Assembly: GCA_963854735.1 (NCBI GenBank)
Contig: OY978099.1
Location: 1,860,001 to 1,924,000, forward strand
Direction: 5' to 3'
Source of the DNA: Marvania coccoides
Taxonomy: Eukaryota > Chlorophyta > Trebouxiophyceae > Chlorellales > Chlorellaceae
DNA length: 64,000 bases
The position numbers were made by a program, and so were the translations under genes. Below the pieces are notes generated by a model that saw nothing but the letters and a program-made list of their open reading frames with translations, did not search any database and was not told where the DNA came from. Shown piece by piece: positions 11,364 to 64,000 of the stretch (position 1 is the first letter of the stretch; every line of letters begins with the position of its first letter).

Positions 11364-11375
11364 GTGCGTTAGTTA

Positions 11376-28426: not shown

Positions 28427-29995
28427 ATGGCTGTACTGACGCGCGCCCCAGCCGCTTCCCGGTTTCCCAAGATTTTGAACAGGGTGTCGCCACGCCTGTT
28501 GTGGAGCATCCCTCTTGCTGCTGCTGTACTCCTGCTCTTATTGCTAGGGCAAACTTCTCCATCTAGGAGTTTTAGTGGCTCTGATTCCTTCTCGTCTCCT
28601 TCTCCTTCTCCTTCTCCCCAACCATCAAGGCTTGGAAACAGAAACAAATGGATGGTGTACTATAGCGTTGGCGGAGACAATGTATCCTACGTTGAGATGT
28701 TGCGGTTCAGCCTTACGACTTTGCGATCATTTAGAGAAAACGACAACATCGACGTATTTGTCCTGGCAGACCGGAGATTTGCCAAGGCAACGGCCCGCAT
28801 TGCGCCCAAGTCTGTCACAATAATACCCAAAGAGCTGGATCTCAGCAGGTGTCGAGGCTATGTTGGAGGCCCGTGCATTGGTGTTCTTGCCAGCATGCGG
28901 AAGACTGAAGTCTTTGACATAGTTCCAAACATTGAAAGCTACAAAGCCGTGCTCTTTCTGGATGCAGACATCGCTGTGTTCGGCCCACTGGAGCCTCTGC
29001 TGACGAAAGTGAGCGAGGAGGAAACACTTCTTCACGTTAAGCGCGACGAATTTGCTCCGCCAAACCTCACACAGGCGCACAGTATGAATTTTTGGAGCCA
29101 CGAAGATTACACTTCAAAGGAAATGGACCTGTTGCTGTCTCATAAAATCCGCCCTTTCAATGCCGGCCAATTTGCGTTTGTCCCCACAAAAGCCATGCGC
29201 GAACACTTTTCTGGGCTTAATGATGCGATTGAGAAGGCGATGGGCAACACCCACTTTTACGAACAATCCCACATGAACCGTTACTTCAATCCGCGGCTGC
29301 TGACCGTGGATTCCCTGCACCAGTTTGTGTCGTTCAACGATTTTATTAAGACGAAGGTCATCATCCACGTCCCTAACAACTTTTTGACGTTGGACATGAA
29401 GCTGGACAAATTGAAGGCCGCATGGAAGGCGGTGGTGGCCCACAATGCACCAACTGCGGTGCCCAACCGGTTTCTGCTGCACACCTCTATTGCTGCCTCG
29501 CGAGTTGTGGATGTCGGTGCTTTTGATGGAAACTTCTCTGCTTATTTGTACAGGACGCTCCGACCAAAGGAGATGTGGCTCCTCGACTCTTGGGAAGACT
29601 CAAATATCGAAACTTATGTGAATGGCATGTCCGTGACGCACAATGGGTTCTCTCTGTACAAGAGTATATCAAGCCAGTACTCTTCCAAGCCCAACGTTCA
29701 CATATATCGCGACCCAAGCTGTATTTTGTGCGACGAATATTCTTTTGACAATCGCAGCGTGGACCTTGTTTATGTCCAGGGTAGCAGGCAATCGATGGAA
29801 AGAGTTAGAGAAAACCTGGAGGCGGCGCGGCGGGTCATTGAGCCTGGCTCTGGATGGCTGGCAGGCGATCGGTACGAGTGCAGTAATGGACAATCTGATT
29901 TTAAGGATGTTGTTGACGAATTTTGTTCAATGCACGGGCTGCGCATCTGGTATGAGTTTGCAGGGGACTGCTCAGGCTATGCTGTACGAATGTAA
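28427..29995 (+). CDS. Bifunctional glycosyltransferase (GT-A) and methyltransferase fusion
   Basis: Single exon, 522 residues. Type II anchor at about 25-42 (LLWSIPLAAAVLLLLLLG), then a Ser/Pro stem. Residues about 70-330 are a GT-A nucleotide-sugar transferase: WMVYYSVGGDNVSYVEMLRF, YKAVLFLDADIAVFGPL with the DxD metal motif, NAGQFAFVPTKAM, and an asparagine-rich end (NHFYEQ-like THFYEQSHMNRYF). Residues about 345-520 form a class I methyltransferase: ASRVVDVGAFDGNFSAYLYR is the SAM loop, then EMWLLDSWEDSNIETYVNG, VDLVYVQGSRQSMERVRENL and a C-terminal strand pair. The pairing suggests that one protein adds a sugar and then methylates it or its neighbour. It marks the left end of the intronless glycan island. 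Confidence 0.8.
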   Translation: MAVLTRAPAASRFPKILNRVSPRLLWSIPLAAAVLLLLLLGQTSPSRSFSGSDSFSSPSPSPSPQPSRLGNRNKWMVYYSVGGDNVSYVEMLRFSLTTLRSFRENDNIDVFVLADRRFAKATARIAPKSVTIIPKELDLSRCRGYVGGPCIGVLASMRKTEVFDIVPNIESYKAVLFLDADIAVFGPLEPLLTKVSEEETLLHVKRDEFAPPNLTQAHSMNFWSHEDYTSKEMDLLLSHKIRPFNAGQFAFVPTKAMREHFSGLNDAIEKAMGNTHFYEQSHMNRYFNPRLLTVDSLHQFVSFNDFIKTKVIIHVPNNFLTLDMKLDKLKAAWKAVVAHNAPTAVPNRFLLHTSIAASRVVDVGAFDGNFSAYLYRTLRPKEMWLLDSWEDSNIETYVNGMSVTHNGFSLYKSISSQYSSKPNVHIYRDPSCILCDEYSFDNRSVDLVYVQGSRQSMERVRENLEAARRVIEPGSGWLAGDRYECSNGQSDFKDVVDEFCSMHGLRIWYEFAGDCSGYAVRM

Positions 29996-30469
29996 AAACA
30001 ATAGACTCTTTGACAAATACATTTTGAGCTCAGGGCTTTTCTTCTAAGCCTTTTATTTGGCCACCGTGACTGACCCATGTATTTTTGACGCGTATGCTGC
30101 ATTCTGCACATTTTAAATTCGGGAAATAAATATATATTTAATCTTAATACTAATTGTACCAATAAGCTCGTATATTTATTGAATATTAGTGCATCTGAGC
30201 TTTAGCAAAGAAAATAGCAAAGCAAAAAGAAATGAGATAGATAAAATGCTATTGCTGCGTTGCATTGGGTACAGCTGGAAATATTAAGAGGATTTCCAGC
30301 TGCGCTGATCTATTTCCTATTTCCCTAGCACAAATAATGAACTAACTTTGAGTATTCTACATTAAGTAGTCAGAAAAAAATCCTGAATTGCTACTTAAAG
30401 GGCGCAATATTTGTGCAGCTTCCTTTTGTAGCCAGCCAATTCCTAAGAATAAAATAAAATAAAAACTCA
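29996..30469. other. Gap between convergent genes, with a short hairpin
   Basis: CAGCTGGAAAT at 30272-30282 and ATTTCCAGCTG at 30292-30302 form a perfect 11-bp stem with a 9-bp loop, about midway between two convergent stop codons. Otherwise AT-rich without features. Confidence 0.5.
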
Positions 30470-31477
30470 TTACACCGCTGTGGTTTTGGCTTTCTTGACA
30501 GGGGCACACGGAGCTTTTGCGTTTCTGGGGTCCCAGCGAACATTGACGAAGCCCAGCTCAAACTGCCCAGTGCAAAAAGAGCAAACTGGTTCGACGCTGT
30601 ACAGCCTGAACCCAGCGTCTTCCAAATGTTCAAACAATTTGACAAGATAGGGAAGGCGGCGGGACCCCCCACGATCGTGAACTTCAACCAAAATTTGACC
30701 AATGCACATGTCGTCCCACTCAGTTTGTTCCAAAACCGGCCATTCAGACTCTTCAATATCAATTTTCAAGACATCAACGTGAGAATGCTTCAATTCGTCC
30801 ATAATTGTCGCCAGAGTTTTCACAGGGTGCTTTTGGCCCATCAATACAATCTCTCCGTCCTCTGCGCTGAGGCCATACGAATGGTAGTTCCAGCGAGGCA
30901 ACGGCGACGAAGTTGGATCAAACACGTGAATGTCACAGTTCCCTGCCACAGCGTGCACGCTTTTCTCGAATGCGTCGTTGTTGTTCGAACCGAACGAGTA
31001 AACCACGCAGCTCTTGCTCGATTTCCGCTCAGCAAGCTCCTCCAGGCCGCAGGTCCACTTGCCGCCATCGTACATGACCTTGGTGCTGGGGTCTTTGACC
31101 ATGGAGAAGGGACATGGGTAGGCCGGCGACAAGAGCGCCAGCGCTTTCGCCTCGTGCAGCGTTATATTCCGATAGTATGCCGCTTCACCCTCAATGCACG
31201 TCATAAATGCCGTCCGCTCTCTCACTTTGTTCATGTAATTTTTTTCGAGCGTGTCTTTTGACACCATTCTATTAACCTCTCTAACTTTGGCATCCAGTTG
31301 CTGCGCCAGCGCATTATTCCGCGAAACTAAAAAGAAGATCGCCGTGATTGAAATTGAAAGAACAAAAATTAGTACGGATGGGCTCTTCGCCGCTGGCAGC
31401 GGAATCTGACGCAAGAAGCTCATCCCAACAAATGGATTGCTCCGGAAAAAACTGTCTGACGGCTTGGAAATTTTCAT
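30470..31477 (-). CDS. METTL24/FkbM-like methyltransferase, type II membrane protein
   Basis: Single exon. The first ATG (31477) gives 335 residues with an anchor at about 32-50 (VLIFVLSISITAIFFLV) followed by a coiled stem. The catalytic part has KSCVVYSFGSNNNDAFEKSV as the SAM loop, CDIHVFDPTSSPLPRW and VDVLKIDIEESEWPVLEQ, the FkbM-type central acidic motif. It then has QILVEVHDRGG and a C-terminal FELGFVNVRW strand. Conserved Cys pairs suggest lumenal folding. It probably methylates a glycan in the Golgi. The same fold as the enzymes at 22083, 47050 and 58037, but sequence similarity looks low, so these are old paralogues or separate acquisitions. Confidence 0.85.
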   Translation of the reverse strand: MKISKPSDSFFRSNPFVGMSFLRQIPLPAAKSPSVLIFVLSISITAIFFLVSRNNALAQQLDAKVREVNRMVSKDTLEKNYMNKVRERTAFMTCIEGEAAYYRNITLHEAKALALLSPAYPCPFSMVKDPSTKVMYDGGKWTCGLEELAERKSSKSCVVYSFGSNNNDAFEKSVHAVAGNCDIHVFDPTSSPLPRWNYHSYGLSAEDGEIVLMGQKHPVKTLATIMDELKHSHVDVLKIDIEESEWPVLEQTEWDDMCIGQILVEVHDRGGSRRLPYLVKLFEHLEDAGFRLYSVEPVCSFCTGQFELGFVNVRWDPRNAKAPCAPVKKAKTTAV

Positions 31478-31856
31478 CGGGGGTCGAAACAGATTTTGAA
31501 AACCAACAGCCAAATAACTCGCAACCAGGCGCAGATACAGATATAATTTTCAAACAGACCGAACAGCTTAATAAAATTGAAGGCCGCTGGGTTCCAGCAT
31601 AATTTTGAATTTCCAGCATTTTTTTGCACGGTTCAGGGTGGTGCCGAGCAAGAAAAAAACTTAAAATTTTGATTTATAGAGCAGAGGTCGATGCTTTGAA
31701 ACCAATTGAGATGGTACACGTTGAGCACGCCGTTTTTTTTTTCAGTCGGAGAGCTGCATTGATAATTGCGTGTGCTTTATTTTGGAAAATTTCATCACAA
31801 ACATCAGTTGTTTGATGCATATTTGATGTTTAAAAACCCCTTTACACCGAAATGAA
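31478..31856. promoter_or_regulatory. Shared upstream region of two divergent glycan genes
   Basis: This 379-bp AT-rich gap lies between the methyltransferase (minus) and the GT61 gene (plus). No motif was identified. Confidence 0.3.
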
Positions 31857-34247
31857 ATGCATGTTAGGTATGCCGTTGTTTCACAAATGCCATCGCACTT
31901 GTATTTTATATTTAACCCCCTTTTTAACCCCATCAATCCCTTTTGTCCAGCACCCCCAAACGGCAATTCCAAACACAGCGCGTGTGGACCCTATCTCTGT
32001 CAATTCTGATCGTCGTATTCATTTGGAGCGGCTATTCTGAACATAGGAGCAGCCAGCCTCGTGCGCAGTTCCATGGCGGTGAGTGCCAGTTTTGTTTTAA
32101 GCCCTGTTTATAAAGCATAAATAGAAATGTGAGTGTAACGTAGCTTTTCATTGGGTGCATGCAGGTCGAGCGACCCAGCTGCGGCATCCAGAGTCGCCAC
32201 CTCAACACCGCGACACTACTACTCTGCCGTCTCCTTCTCCCTCACTGCCGCGCATGACCTCACCACCGCCCGCGTCCCCCACCCTATGCGACGGCTGCGT
32301 CACATCCACTGTCACCCTCATGGCTAGCTTGGACTACTGCGGCCGCTTCACCCACCAGCGGTACCGCTATGACAATGTGTACCTCGCAGATGCCCGCACA
32401 CTTGCAGTCTACCTCCCAGAGAGCGTGGCCCTCCCTAGGAGGCAGCGTACCGTGGACACTGTGCAAGGCACCATTCGCGGCAACGGTTCTTCTGCGCGGC
32501 TACCCACGCGTGTCAAGTCGTGGGGGATGAAGGACAGCGAGTTTGCGGTCAAGTATGTGCGCCCTGTCACCACACAGCCGCACTGCTTGAGGTGGGTGGA
32601 GCGCCCGGTGTACGTGCTGTATACCCCGCACTCTGACAACATCTGGCACATGCTGAATGATGCGCTGATGGGGGCCTACCAAACGCTGCGAGAGGAGGGG
32701 CTGCTGCCGCTGGCTGAGATTGATGCAGAGGGCAACATGGTGGAGTACACTGCTGACCTGGAGGAAGGGTGCCCGCTGGTGGTCGATCCAGGGGAACGCA
32801 ATGCGCCGTATCGCCCTGCTGCATGCCGCCCTAGGAAAGGGTTGGTCACCGCAAAGACGTGCAACCCTCAGCAGGACTCGTGGTGCCGACCTGGGCTGGT
32901 GGCGGTGAATCGCAGCTCTGGGCCCATATTCTTGCTGGCACCTGGCGGCGCACCACCCCCACCTCACTGGCAGCATCTTTTTGATGCTGTGAGTGAGGAC
33001 ATGCGGGAATGGGAGTCAATGGAGGGGCTGTGCTTCAGGGAGCTCTACGTTGGCAAGAGTAACACCCTGAACCTGTACACCCGCGTGCTGGACGCCTCGA
33101 CAGCCACCCCGGAAACGGATCCCACAATAGGCATGCGGCAGCGTGCGTTGGCAGCATTCAAGCGCCTGGTCCACGCTGCCGAGCTGGAGAAGCGGACGGT
33201 TCGTCGAAAGGAGACGCCCAAGCTCAAGCAGTGGCCTGGATACTCCGACCCCACAATGGAAAAGCTGCGGCAGGGCATTGGACCAGAGGAAATAGAGGTG
33301 CTCAAGGTGCTGCGCCATATGCGAGGCGCAGCCATAGAGGCGCACCGGGGTTACACCGCAGAAGAAAAGAAAGAGGTTTTTGGGCTAATTGATAAGGAGG
33401 CCGAAAAGCTGCAGCACGTGCTGGAAGGACTCAAAGAGGAGCGCAGCAGCAAAGGGACAGCAGGAGCAGCAGCAGCAGCAGCAGGAAGGGCTGCAGAAGG
33501 GAAGCAGCAGGGTGTTCGTACAGAACCGCCTACTGCTTGGGATAAGAGCGCATCGCTTCGCCCGACGGTAACATTTATGTGGCGCGACATGAGGTAATTG
33601 ATTTACTGTTTTTTACTTCTCCTTCTTAAAGAGTGATTTTGAACTAAAACATGATTTCATTGCATTGATTTCCCTCTTCGCATCACCTCTTTCTTTCTAC
33701 TATGTACAGCCGGTGCATTCTGAATGAGGCCACCGTGTTGGAGTACATCCTGGCCAGGTACAACGTGACCCTCCGCGTCACCACGTTTCAAGAACCAATC
33801 TTGGAGATGATGGAGATCATGAACAGCACTGACGTGCTGTTTGGGGTGCACGGTGCGGGCTGGACAAATGCGCTGTTCCTTCGGCCATCAGCGGCTGCCC
33901 TCCAGCTCATGCCGTACGGCTGGAAGTTTGAGGATTCGCGGACGGACCGAGTGTTTGAGTACATCAGGGGATCTGCGTACAGAAACGTCATCGCCATGCA
34001 GGGTGGGACGCATTTGGCGTGGGTGAACAAACTTGCGAGCCATGCGTTCATGAATAGGGTGGATTTTGGGAGGTCGGAGAAAACCTCGTTTGCGCTGCAC
34101 CCACAGCCAGGCTGGACTCGGCCAGTCAATGCTTTGCCCCACAACAAATGGATTTACCAGAACACGGTGGCGAGCATCGAAGATTTGGCACCGGTGCTGG
34201 ACGAGCTCATGTCAGCAAAAGGCATTTCACCGTTGTCTACTTTTTAA
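31857..34247 (+). CDS. GT61-family glycosyltransferase, type II membrane protein
   Basis: Four exons: 31857-31867, 31951-32078, 32165-33593 and 33710-34247, giving 701 residues. The 11-nt first exon (Met-His-Val plus two bases) is inferred. It supplies a start in the right phase through an 83-bp intron, and without it the membrane anchor WTLSLSILIVVFIW has no ATG. The GT61 domain shows RPVYVLYTPHSDNIWHMLND early. Exon 4 has SRCILNEATVLEYILARYNV, TTFQEPILEMMEIMNSTDVL and FGVHGAGWTNALFL, the signature G-x-H-G-A loop. A low-complexity Ala/Gln insert (about 455-480) precedes the last exon. GT61 members transfer xylose, arabinose or GlcNAc to wall chains or glycoproteins. Exon 3 is GC-rich, like host genes. 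Confidence 0.85.
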
Positions 34248-34551
34248 ATTTGTTTTTTGCTATCTATCATTGTGTTTTCTATGATAGAAATCACCATATA
34301 AAACACACAAACGGTAAAAAAAATGATAAAGCAGCAAATACATTTAAAGGTATGAAAAAAGTAGCACGCTGATCGATAGAAAACAACTTGCAGAATACAT
34401 AGGAAACATGTAGATCGTGTTTTCTACTTTTTTATTGAGTAGTTGTCTAATGTGGCAGTTTATATATCAGTTTTTTGCCATATATAACACGCAGAACACA
34501 GGTATAAAATTTTACAATAAAGTAGCAACATGTCTAAAACAACTGCTAGTG
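34248..34551. other. Gap between convergent genes
   Basis: AT-rich 304 bp with short imperfect palindromes around TAGAAAACA/TGTTTTCTA. No gene was seen. Confidence 0.35.
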
Positions 34552-36798
34552 TCAGCCACCAGCAGTTGCCGTATTATTCAGTGTCAGCAAAGCTTGCGCG
34601 TACGTTTTGGTAACTTCATTCCAATTTCGCTGCTCAACAACCCACTGGCGTGCTGCACGTCCCAGGCGCTGGCGTTCTTCCGAGCTTGCCAAAAGAAAAC
34701 TCAAAGTCTCACCGAGCGATGAAACATTGTCCTTTCGGAACAGCAGGGCACGTTCGTTGTTGCCTGCTATGGTTTTATGAGGAGAGACATCAGACAGCAC
34801 AACTGATTTGCCCATGGCCATTGCCTCCAGAGGTTTGAGCGCAGAGACCATTTCGGTCACCGTGGATGAAAGCCGTGGCACAGGCATAATATCCATGCAT
34901 GCAATGTACCGAGATACACGGTCAAAAGGGATCCTGCCAGTAAACCGACAATTTGACTCAATGCCAAGTTGGCTAGCCTGGCTTTTCACAGTTTCAAACA
35001 CAGCCCCGTCGCCCACCAAAAGAAAGGTATAGGCAACCCCATTGCGAGTCAAACCGGCCAATGCCGAAACAAGCAATTCCAGCCCTTCGTATGCAATTGC
35101 ACTGCCAGCAAAACCTATCACAGGGACCTCCAAATTCAACTGTAACTCCTGGACAACATCTCGGTCACAAGATTGCGGTTTGAATCGGTCAGCATCAGCG
35201 GCATTAGGCACAAAAACGATCCTCTTACGATGAACGCCTCGAGAAACTAACTCATCAGCTAATTCCGACGTCAGCGTGACCACTAAATCAGCATTTTTGG
35301 CGGCTTGCGCCTCTAACGTACGCATGATATGGAAATGCTCTGAATCAGCCCAATCTGGATGCAAAGAAGCGTGCGTTACCTCCCAAAGACCACGAACCTC
35401 GTATACAAATGGCAAGCCGAGCCGTCGGGCTGCTGCTAGTGCTGGTAAGGCTGTAAGGTGATTAGACGCGGCAACAATCACTTCAACACGCTTGCCTTGG
35501 GCCTCCCGGAAGAAATGATCTGCTATTGCAGCTAATTGAGAATCCAACGGAATAGCGATAGTTCCTATTGGCCACCCTGTGGCTGCTGAGTAGGTAACGT
35601 TTTCTATCACGAGTTCACGATAGCTGGAAGCCAAATCTTCTGGAAACCCTGGGCGAGTGGTGGCCCAGACCTTCCAACCAGAGTTTTGTAAACCAACTGC
35701 AACGCCATGCGACCGGGTAGCGTACCCGTCGGTTCGATTTGGAATGGAATGGGAGAGACAATAAAGGAGCGCTTTGTTGTGGATTGGTACGGCAGCGGCG
35801 GGCCTCCGGCGAGGGATGATCCACCCGTCTTTCAGCCGATGCAAGCTTTGAAGGTAATCAAATGCTATACGCTCAATATGCCCGCCTCGTTCGCGCAGCT
35901 GTTTCAGAGTATCCAGTAGGGAAGTTAGCTTTCCAAACATTCTATAATGGTCCCACGCAGCACCTACTTCTATTTGCCAGAACGGATCTGGCGATACTTT
36001 GCACTCCATGACGACATCCCAAAATTTAACATCATGTCCATCGAGAATTAAACGTGCGTTTAGATCAACGCCTTGGCCCTTATCCAGCTGACCATTATAT
36101 AAATATTTCATGAAAGACTCCCGGCCGTACGAGCCCCAGCCACAGGCATTGGTATTCGTCGAGGCACTGCGTGGTTCTGTAAGCATGCTTGATTCATTTT
36201 GTAATTGGACGATGTTATCAGGTGCCGAGCAATTTCCCACTATAGAGCTAAAAACAATGCCTTCAAGAGAGGGGTATTTTTTCAACGCATGCCTTATGAA
36301 TTTGAATCGAGCTGGGTGGGGAATAGAGCTCATATCGAAGAATGTGACGAACGCCGTGGTCGCCATCGAAGCCCCAATATTGTTACACGTGGCAGCACTG
36401 TGTGGTGCAAATAATGGCAAAATTTCAACGTTTGTGTTAACCGCATGGGATGGTAGCTGTATGATGGAATTTCGAGGAACTGCCGAGACAATTATTATAA
36501 TCGATAGGGGCGGTGCCTCCACATTATGAAGGCGTTGGAAAAAAGCTGCTGAATAATACATATATTCCCTGTATGTGGTGGAAACAATTAGAGACAGGTC
36601 ATCTACATTATTATTGCGTGCTACAAAAACTACACCAGTACCATACAGATGAGAAAGCCATGGCAAATAAGGGGCCGCCACTGGGAATGCCAAAGTAAGA
36701 AGGCCAACAGATATAGCCAGCAACAACCCCGCCACCGACACATGGTTTCTTGTCTTTTTGCGCACAGACGGGCTTTGGGGCGGTTTTCTTGATCCCAT
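34552..36798 (-). CDS. Two-domain glycosyltransferase with C-terminal GT4 (GT-B) domain
   Basis: Single exon, 748 residues. An anchor lies at about 22-45 (VAGLLLAISVGLLTLAF). Residues about 55-330 look like a degenerate GT2-like GT-A domain, of the sort that starts with a VARNNNVDDLSLIVSTTYRE segment; no clear DxD is seen. Residues about 345-748 are a bacterial-style GT4 enzyme: SIPNRTDGYATRSHGVA, GLPFVYEVRGLWEVTHAS, VVTLTSELADELVSRGV, VFVPNAADADRFKP, VIGFAGSAIAYEGLELLVSA, FTGRIPFDRVSRYIACMDI and PLEAMAMGKSVVLSDV with the donor-binding Glu. The layout matches large capsule or lipopolysaccharide glycosyltransferases of bacteria. Lack of introns and lower GC make horizontal origin plausible, but the added N-terminal anchor is a eukaryotic trait. 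Confidence 0.85.
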   Translation of the reverse strand: MGSRKPPQSPSVRKKTRNHVSVAGLLLAISVGLLTLAFPVAAPYLPWLSHLYGTGVVFVARNNNVDDLSLIVSTTYREYMYYSAAFFQRLHNVEAPPLSIIIIVSAVPRNSIIQLPSHAVNTNVEILPLFAPHSAATCNNIGASMATTAFVTFFDMSSIPHPARFKFIRHALKKYPSLEGIVFSSIVGNCSAPDNIVQLQNESSMLTEPRSASTNTNACGWGSYGRESFMKYLYNGQLDKGQGVDLNARLILDGHDVKFWDVVMECKVSPDPFWQIEVGAAWDHYRMFGKLTSLLDTLKQLRERGGHIERIAFDYLQSLHRLKDGWIIPRRRPAAAVPIHNKALLYCLSHSIPNRTDGYATRSHGVAVGLQNSGWKVWATTRPGFPEDLASSYRELVIENVTYSAATGWPIGTIAIPLDSQLAAIADHFFREAQGKRVEVIVAASNHLTALPALAAARRLGLPFVYEVRGLWEVTHASLHPDWADSEHFHIMRTLEAQAAKNADLVVTLTSELADELVSRGVHRKRIVFVPNAADADRFKPQSCDRDVVQELQLNLEVPVIGFAGSAIAYEGLELLVSALAGLTRNGVAYTFLLVGDGAVFETVKSQASQLGIESNCRFTGRIPFDRVSRYIACMDIMPVPRLSSTVTEMVSALKPLEAMAMGKSVVLSDVSPHKTIAGNNERALLFRKDNVSSLGETLSFLLASSEERQRLGRAARQWVVEQRNWNEVTKTYAQALLTLNNTATAGG

Positions 36799-42290: not shown

Positions 42291-42299
42291 TACCTCGTG

Positions 42300-56090: not shown

Positions 56091-56445
56091 TTTCTGAGCG
56101 TGCAGGATTCCTAACAAAGTTTTTCTATGGCTGAAGATAAAACAACAATGAATAAATGCGCCATTGTACTAATTAAGCCGGTCATTCAAATCACTTGTGA
56201 ATAGCTAAATTTAATTAAACATGCAGACCCGCGCTGCTTCGCAGCTGTTTCAGTTTTTTTTTTTAATTCTCTGTAGCGCGGTGTGAGACGTTTATTTGTA
56301 CTTTTGTTGCAGCACTTGGTATGCATCATGTTGGTGCTGTGCTGCTAGTCAAGGTCTACAAAGGTTTTACACCATGGAGTAGTACCCTGCTTGCACACCT
56401 GACCCCCCTCTCCGTGCACATAAATTGTCTCAATATTGTTTGTTA

Positions 56446-56501
56446 CAGTTTCTCTTGGCCACACACACCCGCTAGCGGAGAGCAGGGTCTCACAGCTAGC
56501 G
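56446..56501 (-). repeat. Dispersed repeat family, copy 2 (inverted)
   Basis: Reverse complement reads CGCTAGCTGTGAGACC, CTCCGCTAGCGGGTG and TGTGGCCAAGAGAAACTG, matching 47979-48031. Confidence 0.65.
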
Positions 56502-57452
56502 TCAATGATAATTTGTTCGACTGTGGTCATTCATGAATTGACTATATATCATTCACGCCATCTATACTCAACCGTCCTCGTTCTTCGTCGCTCCTACACC
56601 AACTCCTACTCCTGATCCTACTCCTTCTACAGCACCATCACAACCTGCTAATGCACCCGCTGCCCCGCCCGCCCAAACGGGGCCATTTTGGGGGCATGAT
56701 TCTTTTCTCACAACCGCCCTCTGGTTTCTTTTCTTTGGCAAATATTCTTTTTTTTTTTGACCGGTTTCGTACCTACAATCTTAGCCGGATCCTATGTACT
56801 CTTCAAACGCCTGCTTCTTCTGATATTGGAGCCACCGGCGGTGAATGGACCGTCCTTATTATGAAAAAGCGCTACATGCGCGATTTCCTACAAAACTTGA
56901 CGGGGATCCAATGGGACACATTCTTCTAATTTTTTAAGACGGAAATTATACACCATCGATTTCAAAACATTTCTTCAAAAATCCCTCGAGTCTCAGCTCG
57001 GCGTCCATCGATTAACCTGAAGAGCCACAGTGAGTGTGGTGCGATAAATACAGCAAAATTGCCGACATGGCGTGCAAAAAGGATGCACGATGGGAGCAGC
57101 GCTTTTTCAGTGAGAACCACAATATATGAATTATTACAAATAAACGATAGAAAGAAAGTTGTTCATAAAATGCCATTTCACGTGTGAAAATAAAATGGTT
57201 TGCAATTTGTACAGGAGCGTTGACACCCATGGCTATGCCTTGGATTTGATGGTAAATTCACACCAATAATGCTCGGGTTGTCTGTCGTTTTTGTTTTCTT
57301 TTTTTTCCCCGTCACCAAATTTGAATCCAGCATTCGAACACGTGCGCCGCATGCGTTTTATTTCTTATTGCTGAGTTATCCTTGGTGATTCAAATGAACG
57401 TCGCTGTTGTTGACAATTTATTTACCTCGGTACAACGCTCATGGATCCAACA
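56502..57452. other. Intergenic, one short unassigned frame
   Basis: A plus-strand frame at 56651-56929 ends in a protein-like stretch (GGEWTVLIMKKRYMRDFLQN) but has no recognised family. It could be the tail of a decayed gene. Confidence 0.3.
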
Positions 57453-57730
57453 ACACTTTTTACCTTTTCCCTTTAAACACACGGGGGTGTGAAATTTCTG
57501 GACCATTATATATATTTTACACATACTGCGACGGCAACGCCACAATCTACAGAAGAATTGGAATCGGTCTTTGATTGTGGTACACTCGACAAGTGACTGG
57601 ACGAGGCAAACCTTTGAGTAGGAACTGTGCACCTACTATAGGGCGTTCCTCCTGGGGTCTCTTTAAATCTTATTTTTGTCGAGAAATAAGACTGAGCTTA
57701 ATTACCCTCGGTGCTTATCGGGCATATGAA
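57453..57730 (+). repeat. Near-identical long repeat, copy 2
   Basis: Same element as 37476-37765, same orientation. Differences are scattered single bases and small indels near the CCTCCTGGGG segment. Flanking sequence is unrelated on the right and partly similar (T/C-rich) on the left. The interval from here to 58036 holds no gene. Confidence 0.9.
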
Positions 57731-58036
57731 TCCAACAAATTTTGGTTTGACACAATTCAGCAGAGCTGTCGATCAAGAAAGCATCCACATTCTTCTCCAG
57801 TATGCATCAACGCATCGAAAATAGTTATGCCAGCTACCACGATTTAGAAGCTTGCCCTGAGAATAGACGAGGGGCCGAATAGCGCCATTGGACTACCCTG
57901 GAGCGTTTATAATAAATATATATACGATATAGCAGATCTTTTAATGGACACATCTTGTTACGCAGCTCGTCATAAGGTTCTAGTCAGCAGGGACGTCAAC
58001 AGCTTTGTGATTACACTTGCACAGCACTCTCAGCGC

Positions 58037-58885
58037 TTAATTCGAGTTCGATACACGAATAAGAGCATCTTTTAGGTTTGGAAAGCTATCATGGATGTAC
58101 AGCAAATCTCCAAAAGTGCCATGCTCTTTGACAAAGATATACCCACTCTTAGAGAGGCGCTCGCGAAGTTCAAGATTAGGCCTCTCAACCGTGAGAGACA
58201 AAAAAACGTAATCGTCGAATGGGAAATCTTGAAGAACGATATGCTCGGCACCTTCAACATCTAATGACAAATAGTCAATTATTTTTGGAGCATCGCATAA
58301 TCTCAACATATCTACTAAAGAAACTGTTGGCAAGCCAATCGAGGGCGAGCTGGACTTGCGGTTGTCAGTTTCATTGGATACAACTCCTCCACGCACCTTG
58401 TTCAGCGCAAAATGCACAGTAGAACCAGTGGAGTTCCATGCAACACCCCAGACAAGCTGACATTTCCTGTGTGCGAGACCCCACATATACATACTATTAG
58501 CTTCAATGCAAATTCCATTCCAATTGTAAAACATTTCTAATGACAAGGTGTTACTGATATTCACAGCATCGTTGGCAGCTAAATCAACAAAAAATCCATT
58601 TTTTCTCTCATTAAATAGTGCTACGATTGTTTTGTCTTGTCCGACTTGACTATTCCATTTTTGTGGCTGAACAGTTGGAAATGAAGAATCTCCAACAAAT
58701 ATCGAGACAGTTTTCCACCCTGGAGGGGACTCAATATGTCTCGATCGCAATCCATCGAAATTTATGTAGCTAATGTGATGAATTAATCCTAACAAAACCG
58801 AGAAACATATTATCACTGCAGCAATGCACTGCATCCCCTGCGTCCCCACAGACACGGACTTGCGAACAGCAAGTGCCGTGTTCAT
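58037..58885 (-). CDS. FkbM methyltransferase, type II membrane protein
   Basis: Single exon, 282 residues. Anchor at about 18-37 (MQCIAAVIICFSVLLGLI). Clear FkbM family sequence: NSQVGQDKTIVALF, GFFVDLAANDAVNISNTLSL, EMFYNWNGICIEAN, the acidic motif IIDYLSLDVEGAEHIVLQDF and a C-terminal RLSKSGYIFVKEHGTFGDLL. The GVAWNSTGSTVHF strand is also typical. This is the best match to the family in the window. It probably methylates a sugar hydroxyl in the Golgi. The sequence differs strongly from the other methyltransferases of the island. Confidence 0.92.
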   Translation of the reverse strand: MNTALAVRKSVSVGTQGMQCIAAVIICFSVLLGLIHHISYINFDGLRSRHIESPPGWKTVSIFVGDSSFPTVQPQKWNSQVGQDKTIVALFNERKNGFFVDLAANDAVNISNTLSLEMFYNWNGICIEANSMYMWGLAHRKCQLVWGVAWNSTGSTVHFALNKVRGGVVSNETDNRKSSSPSIGLPTVSLVDMLRLCDAPKIIDYLSLDVEGAEHIVLQDFPFDDYVFLSLTVERPNLELRERLSKSGYIFVKEHGTFGDLLYIHDSFPNLKDALIRVSNSN

Positions 58886-59911
58886 GCTTACTTTAAACGT
58901 GTGAATTATGATTGCTTAAACCAACGATAGCTACAATTTAACAATTGCATACATATCCAGTGTAAATTGTGAGCTCAGGCACCTATACTAATCACACACA
59001 CACAGACACAACTCCAGACATTAAGAGGGGGCGGGGCGTATGGGGCAGGGCCCGGTTTCATGAAACCAAGCCGTATTCAAAATACTATTTTACTATTCGA
59101 TTCAGCTTTCAAATCTGAAAAAAAGGCTTTCAATCTTACTTTGCTGTACACACAAGCATTTGCACTTCCTGCGTAGGATAGGGAGTTCTGGCGCCAACTC
59201 GGCATTTCAGCCGGGGCGGTTTTTTTACTGTGGGCGGCATATCTTCTGCATACTTTTTTTTTTTTTGCCATCTTGGGGGTAACAGCAATTCCTTTCACTA
59301 TATATAATTAGTAACCCCCCTTTTTTCAACAGGTTTTCGAACTTTTGCCTCAGATCTTGAATCCTAAATAAATATTCTGCATTCTGGGTACAACGGTGGG
59401 GTGGGGGAGATACCAATGATGCAAAAAACGGGAGGGGAAACAATACACCAGGCCCGGCCAGGGCACTTTATTCCAGCCTCACGCAAACCTTGGCGAAATC
59501 GCGATTCCTGATGCTTGAAAATCCTTTAAGAACGCTGCGGATATGTTGCACTTTCAGAAATTCATCAATTCGCCTGTTAGCCTCAGAGCCCAACGGTGCA
59601 TACAGTATACACGGTCTTGTAGCCAGAAGGTTGACCGCTTCTTTCAGATCAAATGGAGTTGCATTAGGGTTTTTAGGGTTGCCATTGCCCTGTTGCCTGT
59701 TCCGGGGGGAGTCTCAAAATTAATCAAGTTTTTTAGTTTTTGCTCCGCATATTCGTTCGCTGCCCCTGGCTCTGCACTTGGGTACAAACGCAATAGGTAC
59801 CGCCTTACATCTACTCGCACTCAGTGCGCCTCTGTTATTTTGCCCATTTCTGTACGGAGGCTAAACTGTAAATGTTTGATTGCATGGATGCCCCGGAGGT
59901 TTTATGAAATC
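58886..59911. other. Intergenic, low complexity
   Basis: A CA-rich microsatellite at about 58993-59007 and T runs at about 59254. No gene was recognised. Short plus-strand frames at 59490-59920 resemble nothing. Confidence 0.35.
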
Positions 59912-59975
59912 CAGTTCTGATTGGATATGGATATAGATCAAACGCAGAATATACTATGTACTATGGTTTTGCTGC

Positions 59976-60884
59976 TTACGAAACGTTAGAAGGAGAGTAC
60001 TTTCCTCCACGGAGATGCCACGCATTACAGGCTGCATCGTTCTCGAGAATGCTGGTCACGTAACTGCACTCTGTTTTGTTGGTCTGAACGTGGCCAGGAT
60101 GCAAAAGTGAAATTGGGTGGTACAAAAACATGTCATTTGGGGGAGGCCTCAAGCGGTTTGCAAGGGTGGCCACCAGCTCACGGTGCGAGTTGCCCGAGCC
60201 CAGGAACACCTGCAGTTTTGAAATAGTATCCAGCAGACCGCTGCGGGATGAGAAATTTTCGTAATTGATATCAATCCAACGGCGCCCCGACGCTTCCACA
60301 GCTTGTATGGCAACGCTTTGAGATCTTTTAAAGTTGTTGCACATCGTGACAATGTGCGTTTCATTGCGTATATACCTCTTTTGCGACATCAAAAGTGTGT
60401 AGTTGTGTTTTAACTTTTTTTGAGACATCAAAAGTGCGCTGCAGACGCTGTCAAACGGATCTCGGTGCGAAAATATGAAAAAATCGGTGGAGTTTATAAG
60501 GGTGCTGTTTATGCTATGGGATTTATACACGAATGAAATGTTCTTGTGAGCGACAGATATCCAATTAACCAACGACTTTCCGCCTATTTTATCCATCCAC
60601 CAGCCACTGATTGCATTCGGATTCTCCAATGACACCATGATCCGCACAAGATTGTAGAGGAACGTTGAGCCAGTTCGGGGGAAGCCAACAATGCCTACTG
60701 TGAATGGAGAAGAAACAAATGCCGGCTGCATGGGAGATGATGCTACCAAACTAATATTTTTATGGCAGGAGGTAAAAAACATGCAGACGAGCAGCGCAAC
60801 AACTGAAAGCATAATGATTGATCTATGCATTTTGCGATACGCCATATTAATAGGGACAGAATTTGGAGTCAAGGGGAGTAACAT
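59976..60884 (-). CDS. Sulfotransferase, Golgi type
   Basis: Single exon, 302 residues from the first ATG; 60845 is another plausible start. Anchor at about 20-38 (IIMLSVVALLVCMFF). The 5'-phosphosulfate loop that binds PAPS is TVGIVGFPRTGSTFLYNLVR. The 3'-phosphate region is DFFIFSHRDPFDSVCSALL, followed by a conserved YENFSSRSGLLDTISKLQVF. Between them a short internal repeat, LLMSQKKLKHNYT then LLMSQKRYIRNET, looks like a recent in-frame tandem duplication. The protein would sulfate a glycan or tyrosine in the Golgi. Two truncated copies lie at 52091 and 63001 and another family member begins at the right edge. Confidence 0.85.
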   Translation of the reverse strand: MLLPLTPNSVPINMAYRKMHRSIIMLSVVALLVCMFFTSCHKNISLVASSPMQPAFVSSPFTVGIVGFPRTGSTFLYNLVRIMVSLENPNAISGWWMDKIGGKSLVNWISVAHKNISFVYKSHSINSTLINSTDFFIFSHRDPFDSVCSALLMSQKKLKHNYTLLMSQKRYIRNETHIVTMCNNFKRSQSVAIQAVEASGRRWIDINYENFSSRSGLLDTISKLQVFLGSGNSHRELVATLANRLRPPPNDMFLYHPISLLHPGHVQTNKTECSYVTSILENDAACNAWHLRGGKYSPSNVS

Positions 60885-61638
60885 GAGCAAAAGGGTGCGC
60901 CACGGCAAAACGACTAAACCCCCAAAATAGCCTGTTATCGAATTTGGCTTGGATGTTCACCATTCACGTTCGAAAATCAGTTTATATATGCCAAAAAAGC
61001 AAAATTTTGGGCTGGCAGGCTCCTGAACTCGTCGGGTGAGAGTGCTGAGCGTCGAACTGTCGAATTTTGAAACATTTTAGTTTATATATCTTGGCGGGGA
61101 TTATACTGCGAATGAAAATGATTAACGTAACAAGCGTGGCTAAAGGGATACACGCTAGAAGACCCCTTCTTGATCACTTCACGCGCACACCTGCCGCTGA
61201 ATCCCGCGTCACCTATTACAATGCGTTGTTCCGCAAGGTGCTGTTCCAGTCACTAACCCCCCCGAGCGCAGCGACTCCCAAAATTCCCTTAATTTTAATC
61301 AATGTGACGCGCGCCCTGTGAGCGCCGTATTTATAGGGCCCCTCCCCCCCCACCCCCCGCTGTGGGTTAAGTTGTTCGTTGTTTAGTTATGTTATTGTTT
61401 AATTTAATGCAACAAACGACGTGTCCGAAATTGCTATTCACGATGCTTGACAATCGTATCAAGAACGCCAATTCGATCTCGAAATTGCATTCTGAAGTGC
61501 ATGCCCTTCTCAGATTCCCAGGCATTCAGTTATTTATTTTATTTTATATTTATTCCATTTTATAGCATATGCTCGCGCTGTAGTATACTACATACCTATT
61601 CAATTGCCAGGCAAGCATTGCCGCTCTGACTACACACC
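60885..61638. promoter_or_regulatory. Shared upstream region of sulfotransferase and PC-esterase 3
   Basis: This 754-bp gap between divergent genes has a C-rich patch at 61340-61360. An 84-codon frame at 61067-61321 resembles nothing. Confidence 0.3.
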
Positions 61639-62814
61639 ATGGAAAAGAGCCACTGGCTGTTTGCACCAAAGATAGTATTGTTGATAAATGAGTGTAAATC
61701 AATCCCGAAGTGCTCGCTCGTTGGTCTGGTGTCAGCTGTAGCGGTGTTCACATTTTTTGCCAGCCTTTCCCAGCATCGCGGTTGGTATTTTCCACGCTCC
61801 GCTGTCACAGATGTTAGTAGCATGTGCACCATCGATAAATCATCTGTTCCTTTGTTGAATTTTACAGGGTGGGAATCAGACTGGTGGCCACAGTCACTTT
61901 GTGACAAAAGTGTTTCCGAACGTGTGCAGCAGAACCTCCCCATCCCCATAGATACGCTTCGTTCATTCACCCCATGCCAGTTATTTGAAGCAATCCGAGG
62001 GAAAACCATCTATTTTATTGGCGACAGCCAATCAAATGCATTTTTTTTGACAACGGCGTTTTTTCTCCGGCAGTTTGCCTTATTCCGCCCTCAGCCTGGT
62101 GTTGACTATAAAGCCGACGATGATCGAACTGTTCCTATATTAAACGATGACAAGCTCACAGAATTGTTAGAAAAAGAGCAAAGCAGAACGGCGTGGAACC
62201 CTCCACCAGGCTGCCGCGAGTTTCTCGATGGCACAAAAATATGCAACATTCGTCCTGGGCTTGGAAACAGAGCAGGATCGTACACAGCGCTTGCAATTGA
62301 TCTGTTGACGCAGTCTTCAAGGTTTACGAGGTGGAGAGACACGGTTGTTGTGTTCAACTTTGGGTTGCATTATCCCAGGCAAGGTGATGGGTATGATTAC
62401 AACTATGACCTGCGGCTGGTAAAACAATACCGTAAATGGAAACTAGCGAACCAAAAAAGTCTACCACTGATGGTATGGATGGAGACGCCGCCTCAACACT
62501 TTTCGACTGCAGACGGTCACTTCAGCTGGTCTGGCGACAAAACAGATCCATGTCGCCGTTTGAACCTCACGAACCCCGTGGTTGCTGTGGGCCAATATTG
62601 GAACAATGCTTCACAGGCGTATCTGGATGGCATTGCTGACCTTCATCTCCCAATTTATCAAGTATTGAAAGGGTTTTGGTTTGCGCACAATAAGCCTGGC
62701 GATTGCACTCATTATTGCCACCCATCAGCGCCTGAAATGTGGCTGTATCAACTGTATAGTCTTCTCGTGAGCCCAGCAGCACGTACTTTGTTTCAAGGGC
62801 AGCGAACACGTTAA
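61639..62814 (+). CDS. PC-esterase-like protein 3, probable sugar O-acetyltransferase
   Basis: Single exon, 391 residues, with ATG in good context (ACACCATGG). Anchor at about 25-45 (SLVGLVSAVAVFTFFASL). The GDS block is RGKTIYFIGDSQSNAFFLTT. The closing block is KPGDCTHYCHPSAPEMWLYQ with Asp-x-x-His (DCTH), and CxxxH cysteines around it. Between them lie TVVVFNFGLHYP and PLMVWMETPPQHF, strands typical of the SGNH fold as seen in NXPE/PMR5-like proteins. It is the most canonical of the three PC-esterases in the window. Confidence 0.85.
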   Translation: MEKSHWLFAPKIVLLINECKSIPKCSLVGLVSAVAVFTFFASLSQHRGWYFPRSAVTDVSSMCTIDKSSVPLLNFTGWESDWWPQSLCDKSVSERVQQNLPIPIDTLRSFTPCQLFEAIRGKTIYFIGDSQSNAFFLTTAFFLRQFALFRPQPGVDYKADDDRTVPILNDDKLTELLEKEQSRTAWNPPPGCREFLDGTKICNIRPGLGNRAGSYTALAIDLLTQSSRFTRWRDTVVVFNFGLHYPRQGDGYDYNYDLRLVKQYRKWKLANQKSLPLMVWMETPPQHFSTADGHFSWSGDKTDPCRRLNLTNPVVAVGQYWNNASQAYLDGIADLHLPIYQVLKGFWFAHNKPGDCTHYCHPSAPEMWLYQLYSLLVSPAARTLFQGQRTR

Positions 62815-63000
62815 AGCTCCTGTTTTGATATTACTACCTGTACCTGCAGGCAGTGGGTTTAAGTCACCTGGTGAAAAGAGGGGGCGATTGGGTTGCGGAA
62901 ATTCTGCACCGCTTTGTGCAAGCATAACCAATGTCGAATGATCATGGAATGCGGATAGCACAATGGTGCTCTTTAAAAGGCAAACATGAGCTGGGCGATG

Positions 63001-63270
63001 CAGTTCTGATTGGATACAGTTATAGATCAAACGTAGAATATATTATGGTTTTGCTGCTTACGAAACGTGAGAAGGAGAGTACTTTCCTCCACAGAGATGC
63101 CACGCATTACAGCAACATGCCATTTGGGGGAGGCCTCAGGCGCTTTGCAAGGGTGGCCACCAGCTCACGGTGCGAGTTGCCCGAGCCCAGGGTCACCTGC
63201 AGTTTTGAAATCGAATCCGGCAGTCTGCTGCGGGATGAGAAATTTTCGTAATTGATATAAATCCAACGGA
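63001..63270 (-). pseudogene. Truncated copy of the sulfotransferase 3' end
   Basis: Nearly identical to 59912-60283, including the non-coding 3' flank (TTCTGATTGGATA...ATAGATCAAACG) and the coding part around GAGCTGGTGGCCACCCTTGC (reverse complement). It lacks about 96 bp corresponding to 60031-60126, and stops where the match to the middle of the gene ends. It is a recent partial duplication with deletion. Confidence 0.85.
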
Positions 63271-63329
63271 TAATAGTATTACACTAGTAACAAACCTAAA
63301 AGCTGGCGTACATCACTCAATTCGTTCAA

Positions 63330-64000
63330 TTAGCAGTTATAGCCATGTTTTTTCTGCCATGTACAAAAGCGGTTTGAAATTGCGTCGCTCATTGAAGTTG
63401 AAATCGCGTTTTTGTTTTGCAGCCCAGAAAATCTTCGACCAGGTATTTTAGGGTTTGCATCCATGTGTTGAAAGACTCGAGCATCATGAAGCAATTGTTG
63501 AATCGAGATATTTTTGGCGGATACGTTGAGGGCAGAGCCGATTGCAGCAACGATTTCAAGTGCAGCCCATTCGGTATCTTTGCCCAAAGCTTTATATGAC
63601 ATACTCACTGCGTCATGGCTAGTCCAGCAATTGTGATGACGCACACTCTTTTCGAGGTATGGAATTGCGTCTAGGCAAGAATTGTCTATGGGACGGGCAT
63701 CCCCAACGTCAGACCTGTTGCAGAAAGCGCTGGACAATGAGCCGTAGACATCGAATACGTCGCGGTGTGTTGTGAAAAAGATGCGGTCGCGACAGTAATG
63801 CAATAATTTTGGGTCGAATTCGTGGGATTTCAGAAGAACAACGCTGTCAGGATCTCTCGCTACTCTCCATGCGAAATCGCGTTGCTTCTTTAGTAACAGC
63901 ATCCGGTGCGATGCGTTGATAGACGGCAAATGAAGATGAGCATTCCAGTACGTACGATGAACATTTGTGACATTTAAATGTTGTAACGACAACACTATGA
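63330..64000 (-). CDS. Sulfotransferase-like protein, 5' end beyond the window
   Basis: An open minus-strand frame of at least 221 codons runs off the right edge. No ATG near the edge is convincing, so the start lies outside. Visible parts include WRVARDPDSVVLLKSHEFDP and RDRIFFTTHRDVFDVYGSLS, the 3'-phosphate type motif with Arg-Asp. A helical tail follows (KDTEWAALEIVAAIGSALNV, HDARVFQHMDANPKIPG). The PAPS loop must be upstream. It resembles the sulfotransferase at 59976 in layout but not closely in sequence. Confidence 0.7.
   Translation of the reverse strand, partial: IVLSLQHLNVTNVHRTYWNAHLHLPSINASHRMLLLKKQRDFAWRVARDPDSVVLLKSHEFDPKLLHYCRDRIFFTTHRDVFDVYGSLSSAFCNRSDVGDARPIDNSCLDAIPYLEKSVRHHNCWTSHDAVSMSYKALGKDTEWAALEIVAAIGSALNVSAKNISIQQLLHDARVFQHMDANPKIPGRRFSGLQNKNAISTSMSDAISNRFCTWQKKHGYNC

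Follow-up and report, generated by a model that had tools for sequence, protein, structure and literature searches.

Why do genes for glycan synthesis and decoration lie together in the nuclear genome of a green alga, how far does the cluster reach, and what might it make? The initial annotation of the window analysed here (the whole 64,000-nucleotide stretch of DNA) described a 36-kb island starting at 28.4 kb. Our follow-up suggests, with a probability of about 0.6, that the window is the left end of a ~425-kb low-GC locus for the construction and decoration of surface glycans, in an alga that looks trebouxiophyte.

Extent of the low-GC island

GC content in 2-kb windows is 0.52-0.62 over the first 14 kb and falls past the squalene epoxidase gene, whose end lies at 13.9 kb, to 0.41-0.53 from 15 kb, with patches up to 0.57. 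The low-GC stretch runs from ~14.5 kb, with the same type of content continuing past the window edge, to ~2.30 Mb of contig C3, a length of ~425 kb, of which the part beyond 2.124 Mb was traced by sampling. Normal-GC DNA flanks it on both sides, and the far side ends in a telomere cap. The island is a block within C3 (2,312,286 bases) and not a whole small low-GC chromosome; its low GC and GC3 were judged by comparison with the flank and with a few loci elsewhere. The low GC originally reported was confirmed. The start at 28.4 kb was set too late, given the GC drop after 13.9 kb, GT47 matches at 18.8-20.1 kb and, at 22.1-22.8 kb, an FkbM gene; the 36-kb size had its end at the window edge only. 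The window contains no N; 200 N lie within C3:1936001-1940000. The left part of the window comprises the following features.

1..13937: normal-GC flank with ordinary genes (GC 0.52-0.62; GC3 0.73-0.83; Pfam matches: SLX1-like, malic enzyme, PsbP-like, V-ATPase E, anthranilate synthase, squalene epoxidase)
14500..64000: in-window part of the low-GC glycan island, extending past the window edge (GC profile and gene content)
15222..18380, plus strand: successive open frames, an intron-bearing or decayed gene (first frame O-fucosyltransferase, PF10250 E 0.0021, below cut-off; later frames no match)
18805..20116, minus strand: GT47 (exostosin) gene in pieces (three PF03016 rows at C3:1878805-1880116, two totalling 59.3 bits)
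22083..22808, minus strand: FkbM methyltransferase, no N-terminal anchor seen (PF05050 1.7e-7)

Glycan genes in the window

Between 28.4 and 64 kb we distinguished 17 gene models, mostly intronless as first described. Thirteen matched glycan or sugar-nucleotide families (E <0.01), nine of them above curated cut-offs (Methyltransf_22/FkbM at 30.5 kb, GT61, GT4, WecC, WecB, the PC-esterase at 43.3 kb, GT2, and FkbM at 47.0 and 58.0 kb) and four below (GT8-like, the sulfotransferase at 60.0 kb, the PC-esterase at 61.6 kb and the fucosyltransferase-like gene at 50.5 kb). The remaining four, at 44.9, 52.5, 54.5 and 63.3 kb (the last scanned for its in-window part only), had no family match, and none of the 17 matched a non-glycan family significantly, in agreement with the claim that every confidently identified gene here is glycan-related. 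Two more ORFs in GC-richer patches (41.6 and 49.2 kb) gave no family match. Apart from wecB and wecC, the models are:

28427..29995, plus strand: GT8-like glycosyltransferase with N-terminal anchor (PF01501 7.7e-5, just below cut-off)
30470..31549, minus strand: methyltransferase (Methyltransf_22/FkbM) with N-terminal anchor (PF13383 2.2e-26)
32125..34247, plus strand: GT61 glycosyltransferase, two exons, intron 33594-33709 (PF04577 4.6e-11 on exon 2; GT-AG intron, joined frame open)
34552..36798, minus strand: GT4 glycosyltransferase, 748 aa, N-terminal anchor and extra N-terminal region (PF00534 2.3e-23; PDB glycosyltransferase matches)
43308..44558, plus strand: PC-esterase, Pmr5/Cas1p-type (PF13839 3.5e-36)
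44899..45759, minus strand: probable GT-A glycosyltransferase, by eye only (no family match)
45773..46564, minus strand: GT2 glycosyltransferase (PF00535 1e-7)
47020..47937, plus strand: FkbM methyltransferase with N-terminal anchor (PF05050 5.6e-5, 23.8 vs 22.7 bits)
50478..51937, plus strand: fucosyltransferase-like gene, two exons, intron 51405-51475 (PF03254 0.0066, below cut-off; joined frame open; no PDB match)
52532..53695, minus strand: membrane-anchored protein, fucosyltransferase-like by eye only (no Pfam match; nothing meaningful in PDB)
54486..56168, minus strand: 560-aa protein, SGNH/NXPE-like by eye only (no Pfam match; nothing meaningful in PDB)
58037..58915, minus strand: FkbM methyltransferase with N-terminal anchor (PF05050 6.5e-5, 23.6 vs 22.7 bits)
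59976..60956, minus strand: sulfotransferase with N-terminal anchor (PF13469 7.5e-6, 26.8 bits vs cut-off 27)
61630..62814, plus strand: PC-esterase-like protein with N-terminal anchor (PF13839 5.3e-5, below cut-off)
63330..64000, minus strand: sulfotransferase-like gene (by eye) with N-terminal anchor, truncated at the window edge (its open frame extends to C3:1924337)

The GT8-like gene has a paralogue at C3:2106515 (43% identical), and the C-terminal part of its product resembles a SAM methyltransferase by eye. The GT4 protein scored 273 bits against TIGR04063, short of the cut-off of 442. By eye, the full frame of the sulfotransferase-like gene at the edge contains a P-loop-like motif; its in-window part has no Pfam match.

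The debris seen earlier has to be divided. Two broken-looking genes, for GT61 and the fucosyltransferase-like protein, contain introns with GT-AG borders (116 and 71 nt) and have open joined frames, so these genes (32.1-34.2 and 50.5-51.9 kb) need not be debris; decayed copies were found outside the window, with in-frame stops in GT47 genes at 2.066 and 2.085 Mb, a DegT gene at 2.247 Mb and an FkbM gene at 2.182 Mb, and part of the island may therefore not work. GT61 exon 1 alone gave a chance-level NuDC match (E 0.043).

A hydrophobic segment close to the N terminus occurs in 26 of the 32 ORFs from 28.4 kb onward that encode transferases or unknown proteins, and in one of six flanking genes (squalene epoxidase). 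Three ORFs scored at 15-26 kb have no anchor, which brings the count for the whole island to 26/35. WecB, WecC, and the DegT aminotransferase and acetyltransferase encoded past the window likewise show no clear segment of this kind.

Bacterial wecB and wecC

Two divergent genes and a dispersed repeat occupy the middle of the window.

37476..37765: dispersed repeat that adjoins the 3′ end of wecC (93% identical to 57454-57730; more copies past the window)
37957..39225, minus strand: wecC, UDP-N-acetyl-D-mannosamine dehydrogenase, read from Met (NF008286 equivalog, 642.4 bits, cut-off 459)
39999..41141, plus strand: wecB, non-hydrolysing UDP-GlcNAc 2-epimerase, read from Met (TIGR00236 equivalog, 480.1 bits, cut-off 210.15)
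57454..57730: second repeat copy, flanking an FkbM gene on its 3′ side

Near-invariant columns are kept at 168 of 181 positions in WecC, including a GVGGHCIAVDP segment whose Cys we take to be catalytic, and at 142 of 158 in WecB, the sole match of its kind in the genome. Scores far above the equivalog cut-offs agree with the first reading of both enzymes, and judged by sequence wecB and wecC are genuine bacterial-type UDP-ManNAcA genes. In trees both proteins are placed among Pseudomonadota on long branches (WecC 1.56, WecB 1.22); they are of bacterial descent. Codon usage of both lies within the range of island genes, for WecB with a small margin over five bacterial wecC genes. The sugar is typical of bacterial capsules, and wecB lies just upstream of wecC in all 80 bacterial wecC loci kept. 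Compared with bacterial wecB-wecC pairs (enterobacterial common antigen, capsule loci), the island genes also exceed equivalog cut-offs and adjoin each other, but they lie on a eukaryotic chromosome, are divergent with ~770 bp between start codons, and have no bacterial neighbours.

Clustering, repeats and decay beyond the window

From the window edge to C3:2124000 we scanned 79 of 85 selected ORFs, 20 chosen by GC <=0.50 and 59 others. Among the 20, 11 matched glycan or sugar-nucleotide families (E <0.001), two gave weak glycan matches (sulfotransferase 0.015, GT8 0.043), one a weak reverse transcriptase match, and six had no meaningful match. Families matched by the other 59 were mobile-element types and one more GT47 only, and no housekeeping gene was identified among the 79.

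The island makes up ~1.9% of the genome and holds 10 of 29 FkbM matches, 10 of 16 GT47 rows (6 of ~10 loci) and 9 of 12 matches to Ty3-type retroelements (RT_RNaseH), compared with 0 of 21 light-harvesting control matches. Clustering of FkbM, GT47 and retroelements exceeds chance in an interval drawn post hoc, after the matches were seen; within that limit, the nuclear clustering of glycan genes claimed at the outset stands. Enrichment is modest for GT61 (3/18), DegT (2/6) and PC-esterases (2/9 rows, both from one gene), and none of the genome's five Sulfotransfer_3 matches falls in the island. Glycan genes occur elsewhere too, with 8 of 18 GT61 matches on contig C8, seven of those at 120-141 kb. 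Diverse and for the most part unrelated genes are brought together in the island with retroelements; it is not one expanded tandem family.

Repeats cover 20-100% of 24 of the 25 8-kb bins in C3:1924001-2124000 (10% in the other) and 0-6% of the window's eight bins, as measured in a self-comparison limited to these 264 kb. This load, together with a low-GC sub-region between normal-GC sides, would fit an island that is mainly a non-recombining mating-type region, comparable to the low-GC part of the big outlier chromosome (BOC) of Mamiellales, in which low recombination lets glycan genes and retroelements accumulate. An RWP-RK gene, of the family of the algal MID regulator, lies at window positions 5069-5764, ~9 kb left of the island edge, but it is outside the island at a normal GC of 0.60, and the only one of 16 RWP-RK rows in the genome to fall inside is a sub-threshold fragment (C3:2202786, 27.2 vs 29.3 bits). 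The scan of island ORFs turned up no housekeeping gene, whereas such genes are clustered in the Mamiellales BOC region (PMC3491373). A mating-type region accounts for the repeats, not for the retained genes being glycan genes, and we consider it unlikely.

Retroelements, several copies with in-frame stops and a telomere-capped end nearby would also fit a sink for acquired genes, a passive repeat-rich region such as heterochromatin, a centromere or a subtelomere, where these genes decay and share no function. Yet the anchored ORFs are long and intact, WecB and WecC retain near-invariant columns, the introns are clean, and the non-mobile content is of glycan type wherever identifiable. RT_RNaseH is confined to 2 of 15 contigs and is therefore not a general centromere signature. 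Such a sink seems improbable.

Past the window, a putative viosamine-type aminotransferase (DegT) gene adjoins a gene for a NeuD/PglB/VioB-type acetyltransferase. The best PDB chain for the former is Mimivirus L136 (3.5e-43; next molecule 3.2e-13), and it reaches no NCBIfam equivalog cut-off (best score DesI, 58.8 vs 650). Mimivirus has a Vio4NAc cluster (R141, L136, L142) according to PMC10117803, so that a giant virus might have delivered the glycan genes together, as an endogenised viral element. The likeness covers two genes outside the window, and the island acetyltransferase has no glycosyltransferase fusion whereas L142 is fused. Scans of viral contigs with WecC, WecB, DegT and the acetyltransferase, by a method that detects close relatives only, gave no confirmed relative, WecB and WecC are bacterial, and PDB coverage is too thin to support conclusions on phylogeny; we regard a viral package as very improbable. 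An assembly chimera or bacterial contamination, which the strongly bacterial wecBC and the 200 N past the window might evoke, is hardly credible, as the window is free of N, the repeat adjoining wecC is common to several island loci, WecB and WecC codon usage lies in the island-gene range (narrowly for WecB), and long branches speak against a present-day contaminant.

A putative surface-glycan pathway

For the surface-glycan locus that we favor, cytosolic island enzymes would make unusual activated sugars. We infer that in the alga WecB would convert UDP-GlcNAc to UDP-ManNAc and WecC would convert UDP-ManNAc to UDP-ManNAcA, and the aminotransferase/acetyltransferase pair would probably yield a viosamine-type sugar that is 4-amino-6-deoxy and N-acetylated. 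The island also encodes a triose-phosphate-family transporter. Nucleotide-sugar transporters belong to this family, and the island protein may bring such sugars, its putative cargo, into the Golgi. There, single-pass anchored GT2, GT4, GT8, GT47, GT61 and fucosyltransferase-like enzymes would assemble a polysaccharide, and FkbM methyltransferases, PC-esterases and sulfotransferases would decorate it. The presumed end product is a secreted or cell-surface polysaccharide, made in part with bacterial genes that the island has acquired. Since wecB, wecC, the aminotransferase/acetyltransferase pair and the transporter are concrete genes, and sugar analysis offers a check on what they make, the cell-surface role of such islands becomes testable.

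By analogy, we hypothesize that the island could have a role in virus evasion. A bolder reading, which we offer tentatively and think somewhat doubtful, is that green algae outside Mamiellales independently evolved a fast-turnover, retroelement-rich "glycan immunity" island resembling a capsule locus. It would take in bacterial sugar-nucleotide genes (ManNAcA, viosamine-type) and give bacterial- or giant-virus-like surface sugars that alter attachment of viruses or partners. In that case this could be the first nuclear genome of a eukaryote known to specify ManNAcA synthesis.

Comparison with outlier chromosomes

In content the island resembles the small outlier chromosome (SOC) of Mamiellales, in layout the big one. 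According to sections of PMC5082852 and PMC3491373, the SOC of Ostreococcus, Bathycoccus and Micromonas is low in GC and dominated by glycosyltransferases and methyltransferases, including an FkbM, and also carries epimerases, sugar transporters, pyridoxal enzymes, transposon-related genes and many unknown and acquired genes. Mobile elements apart, glycosyltransferases and methyltransferases dominate the island too, and its GC is below that of the rest, with transposons (RT_RNaseH 9/12). The island differs in being a ~425-kb block in a 2.31-Mb contig, whereas the SOC is given in those sections as a 102-290-kb chromosome, and in having wecBC, PC-esterases and sulfotransferases, of which the same sections make no mention. 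BOC1, likewise of low GC, occupies part of a large chromosome between stretches of normal GC, but contains clustered, highly expressed housekeeping genes and more introns (PMC3491373, in part); no housekeeping gene was identified among the scanned ORFs of the island.

The suggested likeness to Mamiellales outlier chromosomes stands for the functional repertoire, which is close to the SOC, and does not extend to the host, which looks trebouxiophyte. In a tree of squalene epoxidase, a single gene, the alga falls within Trebouxiophyceae beside Chlorella, Micractinium and Auxenochlorella (support 98/92), and a mamiellalean host is not supported. In the portions of the literature examined, Mamiellales are the only group for which outlier chromosomes linked to virus resistance are described; similar content in a trebouxiophyte, of the class that also hosts the well-studied chloroviruses, would suggest that eukaryotes have converged on a capsule-like strategy. 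Chlorella, also a trebouxiophyte, has low-GC chromosome regions, but these are scattered across different chromosomes and contrasted with the Mamiellales outliers in a passage of PMC3491373 that is silent on glycan genes. The host's light-harvesting proteins are LHCII-like by eye.

Extent and gene content of the island

The low-GC block rich in glycan genes and retroelements on contig C3 is a real and unusual nuclear feature, larger than had been claimed and in a different algal class than had been supposed. The window covers C3:1860001-1924000 of a genome comprising 22,462,713 bases in 15 contigs. As measured in 2-kb windows, GC content was 0.52-0.62 up to ~14 kb of the window, where ordinary genes fill a GC-normal left flank of which a squalene epoxidase gene, ending at 13.9 kb, is the last, and 0.41-0.53 after that point, with patches up to 0.57. 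In the next, contiguous 200 kb past the window, AT-rich ORFs, mostly of GC 0.37-0.46, alternate with GC-rich retroelement sequence. Right of C3:2124000, which was covered by eight 4-kb samples, GC was 0.43-0.52 in samples up to 2.297 Mb of C3 and 0.59 in the final 4 kb, at whose end stands a TTTAGGG telomere array. From this profile and the end samples, the island therefore spans about C3:1.8745-2.30 Mb, its right half interpolated between samples, and the 36 kb assigned to it in the initial annotation (28.4-64 kb) proved too small. Inside the low-GC stretch of the window, two GC-richer patches (41430-42300 and 48240-50300) hold no identified gene, and parts near them are similar to DNA past the window edge. 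Some 180 kb to the left of the island, C3:1684007-1696443 carries a PC-esterase gene set in DNA of low GC (0.42-0.45), along with an FkbM match containing a single in-frame stop; this tract is possibly an outlying patch of the island.

We identified 17 gene models between 28.4 and 64 kb, of which nine exceed a curated cut-off, four have glycan matches below it, and four are without a match. None of the 17 significantly matched a non-glycan family, so that the claim that all identified genes here are of glycan type holds, with 13 models matching such families. More glycan genes lie to the left, at 18.8-22.8 kb. Clean introns were found in 2 of the 17 models, the GT61 and fucosyltransferase-like genes, which rules these two out as obvious debris. 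PDB searches with the proteins of the genes at 50.5 (joined exons), 52.5 and 54.5 kb returned no meaningful match, a search with the PsbP-like flank protein found no chain, and neither the tRNA nor the Rfam scan of the window gave a hit.

Beyond the window, 85 ORFs up to C3:2124000 were chosen by codon score and 79 were scanned; the six left out cross boundaries between sequence segments, and a GT61 match lies in one of them. Among the 20 scanned ORFs with GC of 0.50 or less, 11 matched glycan or sugar-nucleotide families at E < 0.001 (a TPT-type transporter, a PglD-type acetyltransferase, a DegT aminotransferase, three FkbM, three GT47, LicD under its cut-off, and STELLO), two gave weak glycan matches, one a weak reverse-transcriptase match, and six no meaningful match. 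The remaining 59 comprised one Ty3-type polyprotein, one ORF without a match, and 57 others, among which the 17 families found are transposon-like or those of mobile elements (reverse transcriptase, gag, integrase, protease, Replitron HUH, endonuclease and a zinc finger), plus one GT47. Since the scanned ORFs matched only glycan and mobile families, no housekeeping gene was identified in these 79 of 85 ORFs. Four ORFs scanned in the samples right of C3:2124000 gave two FkbM-type matches (one just under the cut-off), one GT61, and one without a match. The Replitron_HUH match, a rolling-circle-type endonuclease domain, occurs in one ORF of C3:1944001-2124000.

Clustering across the genome

Genome-wide searches returned 29 FkbM matches, 12 of them on C3 and 10 in the island. 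The island also holds 10 of 16 GT47 match rows (about six of ten loci, of which two carry in-frame stops), 9 of 12 Ty3-type RT_RNaseH matches, 3 of 18 GT61 matches, 2 of 6 DegT matches, 2 of 9 PC-esterase rows (both from a single gene), and none of five Sulfotransfer_3 matches; the controls gave 0 of 21 for LHC and 1 of 16 for RWP-RK. The PC-esterase and sulfotransferase counts are lower bounds, because these searches missed weak island genes, and binomial values for enrichment are descriptive only, because the interval was picked after the matches were seen. Simple tandem expansion was ruled out by BLASTP among 39 island proteins, which yielded only four paralogous pairs, and a general centromere signature by the confinement of retroelement matches to 2 of 15 contigs.

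Outside C3, the only RT_RNaseH matches are in two long Ty3-type frames (1211 and 1129 aa) at C11:983811-997201. Contig C8 has two further glycan clusters, one of seven GT61 matches within 21 kb (120628-141382) and the other of three FkbM matches spanning 10.4 kb (1192004-1202344). Within the window, a 290-bp dispersed repeat (37476-37765 and 57454-57730, 93% identical, with further copies beyond) adjoins the 3′ ends of wecC and of an FkbM gene. Short duplicated segments, 88-92% identical, lie at and beside the 3′ end of the 60.0 kb sulfotransferase gene (59909-60282) and just downstream of the 63.3 kb sulfotransferase-like gene (62998-63269); the two encoded proteins did not match each other in BLASTP.

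Sugar-nucleotide genes of bacterial and viral likeness

Of the unexpected findings, the firmest is the presence of a bacterial pair of UDP-ManNAcA genes within this nuclear island. The genes considered here are:

37957..39225, minus strand: wecC, UDP-ManNAc dehydrogenase
39999..41141, plus strand: wecB, UDP-GlcNAc 2-epimerase
C3:1955111-1957147, outside the window: adjacent acetyltransferase and DegT aminotransferase

Both UDP-ManNAcA assignments were borne out, with equivalog cut-offs well exceeded (642 bits vs 459 for WecC, 480 vs 210 for WecB), and near-invariant columns were kept at 168 of 181 positions in WecC and 142 of 158 in WecB. Among the best 120 of 8000 scored relatives, the closest share 70% (WecC) and 67% (WecB) identity, those named (most are unnamed) are bacteria, all of genera or groups within Pseudomonadota, and the sole row of eukaryote source (P0137) is named Limnohabitans. 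In midpoint-rooted trees the algal WecC and WecB have long branches (1.56 and 1.22) and fall among Pseudomonadota; the fork holding WecB comprises 22 rows (SH-aLRT 90), two Comamonadaceae among them. Directly upstream of wecC is where wecB stands in all 80 bacterial loci kept (of 588 found), and the simplest reading would be that the pair was transferred once and then rearranged into its divergent orientation. Codon usage of both genes fits that of island genes; GC by itself cannot be taken as a sign of adaptation, because two Comamonadaceae wecC genes have GC3 of 0.40 and 0.52. No paper on ManNAcA in a eukaryote was recognized by title or abstract start among the open-licence papers listed, which is weak evidence of absence.

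The acetyltransferase is of the NeuD/PglB/VioB type (187 bits vs a cut-off of 160.8; VioB PDB chain, 3.2e-34). The best PDB chain for the DegT aminotransferase is L136, which we take from the chain name to be a Mimivirus protein. L136 and L142 are described as producing Vio4NAc in Mimivirus (PMC10117803), and the algal pair may possibly represent a viosamine-type sugar pathway, the product in the alga being a prediction. A second DegT match, at 2.247 Mb of C3, has one in-frame stop. Viral-contig scans, which detect close relatives only, confirmed none for WecC, WecB, DegT or the acetyltransferase.

Type II Golgi enzymes have a hydrophobic segment close to their N-terminus. Scored as mean hydropathy > 1.6 across 19 residues, such a segment was found in 26 of the 32 ORFs of transferase or unknown type from 28.4 kb on, in none of three ORFs at 15-26 kb (26 of 35 in total), and in one of six flanking genes. 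One unanchored ORF resembles a reverse-transcriptase fragment by eye. WecB, WecC, DegT and the acetyltransferase have no clear anchor; marginal hydrophobic stretches in WecC and the acetyltransferase lie inside the fold.

Host placement and comparison with outlier chromosomes

A host of Mamiellales type was ruled out by the squalene epoxidase tree (one gene), which groups the alga with Chlorella, Micractinium and Auxenochlorella in Trebouxiophyceae (support 98/92). Two light-harvesting proteins appear LHCII-like by eye. Two papers (PMC5082852, PMC3491373) give the repertoire of the Mamiellales small outlier chromosome as glycosyltransferases, methyltransferases, epimerases, sugar transporters, pyridoxal enzymes and transposon-related genes. 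The island mirrors this repertoire, whereas its layout, a low-GC block within a big chromosome, is nearer to that of the big outlier chromosome (PMC5082852, PMC3491373). Such outliers had not been found in Chlamydomonas, Volvox or Chlorella, according to PMC3491373. Among the open-licence papers listed, none could be recognized by title or abstract start as describing an outlier block rich in glycan genes in Trebouxiophyceae, again weak evidence of absence. A virus role of the island may be proposed only by analogy.

A reading of the island as a mating-type region is kept alive by dense repeats beyond the window and by a small nearby RWP-RK gene (window 5069-5764, plus strand; 231-aa open frame, 64.4 bits), although this gene lies ~9 kb outside the island, to the left of its low-GC boundary and in normal-GC DNA. 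The RWP-RK gene is itself a candidate MID-like or RKD-type regulator.
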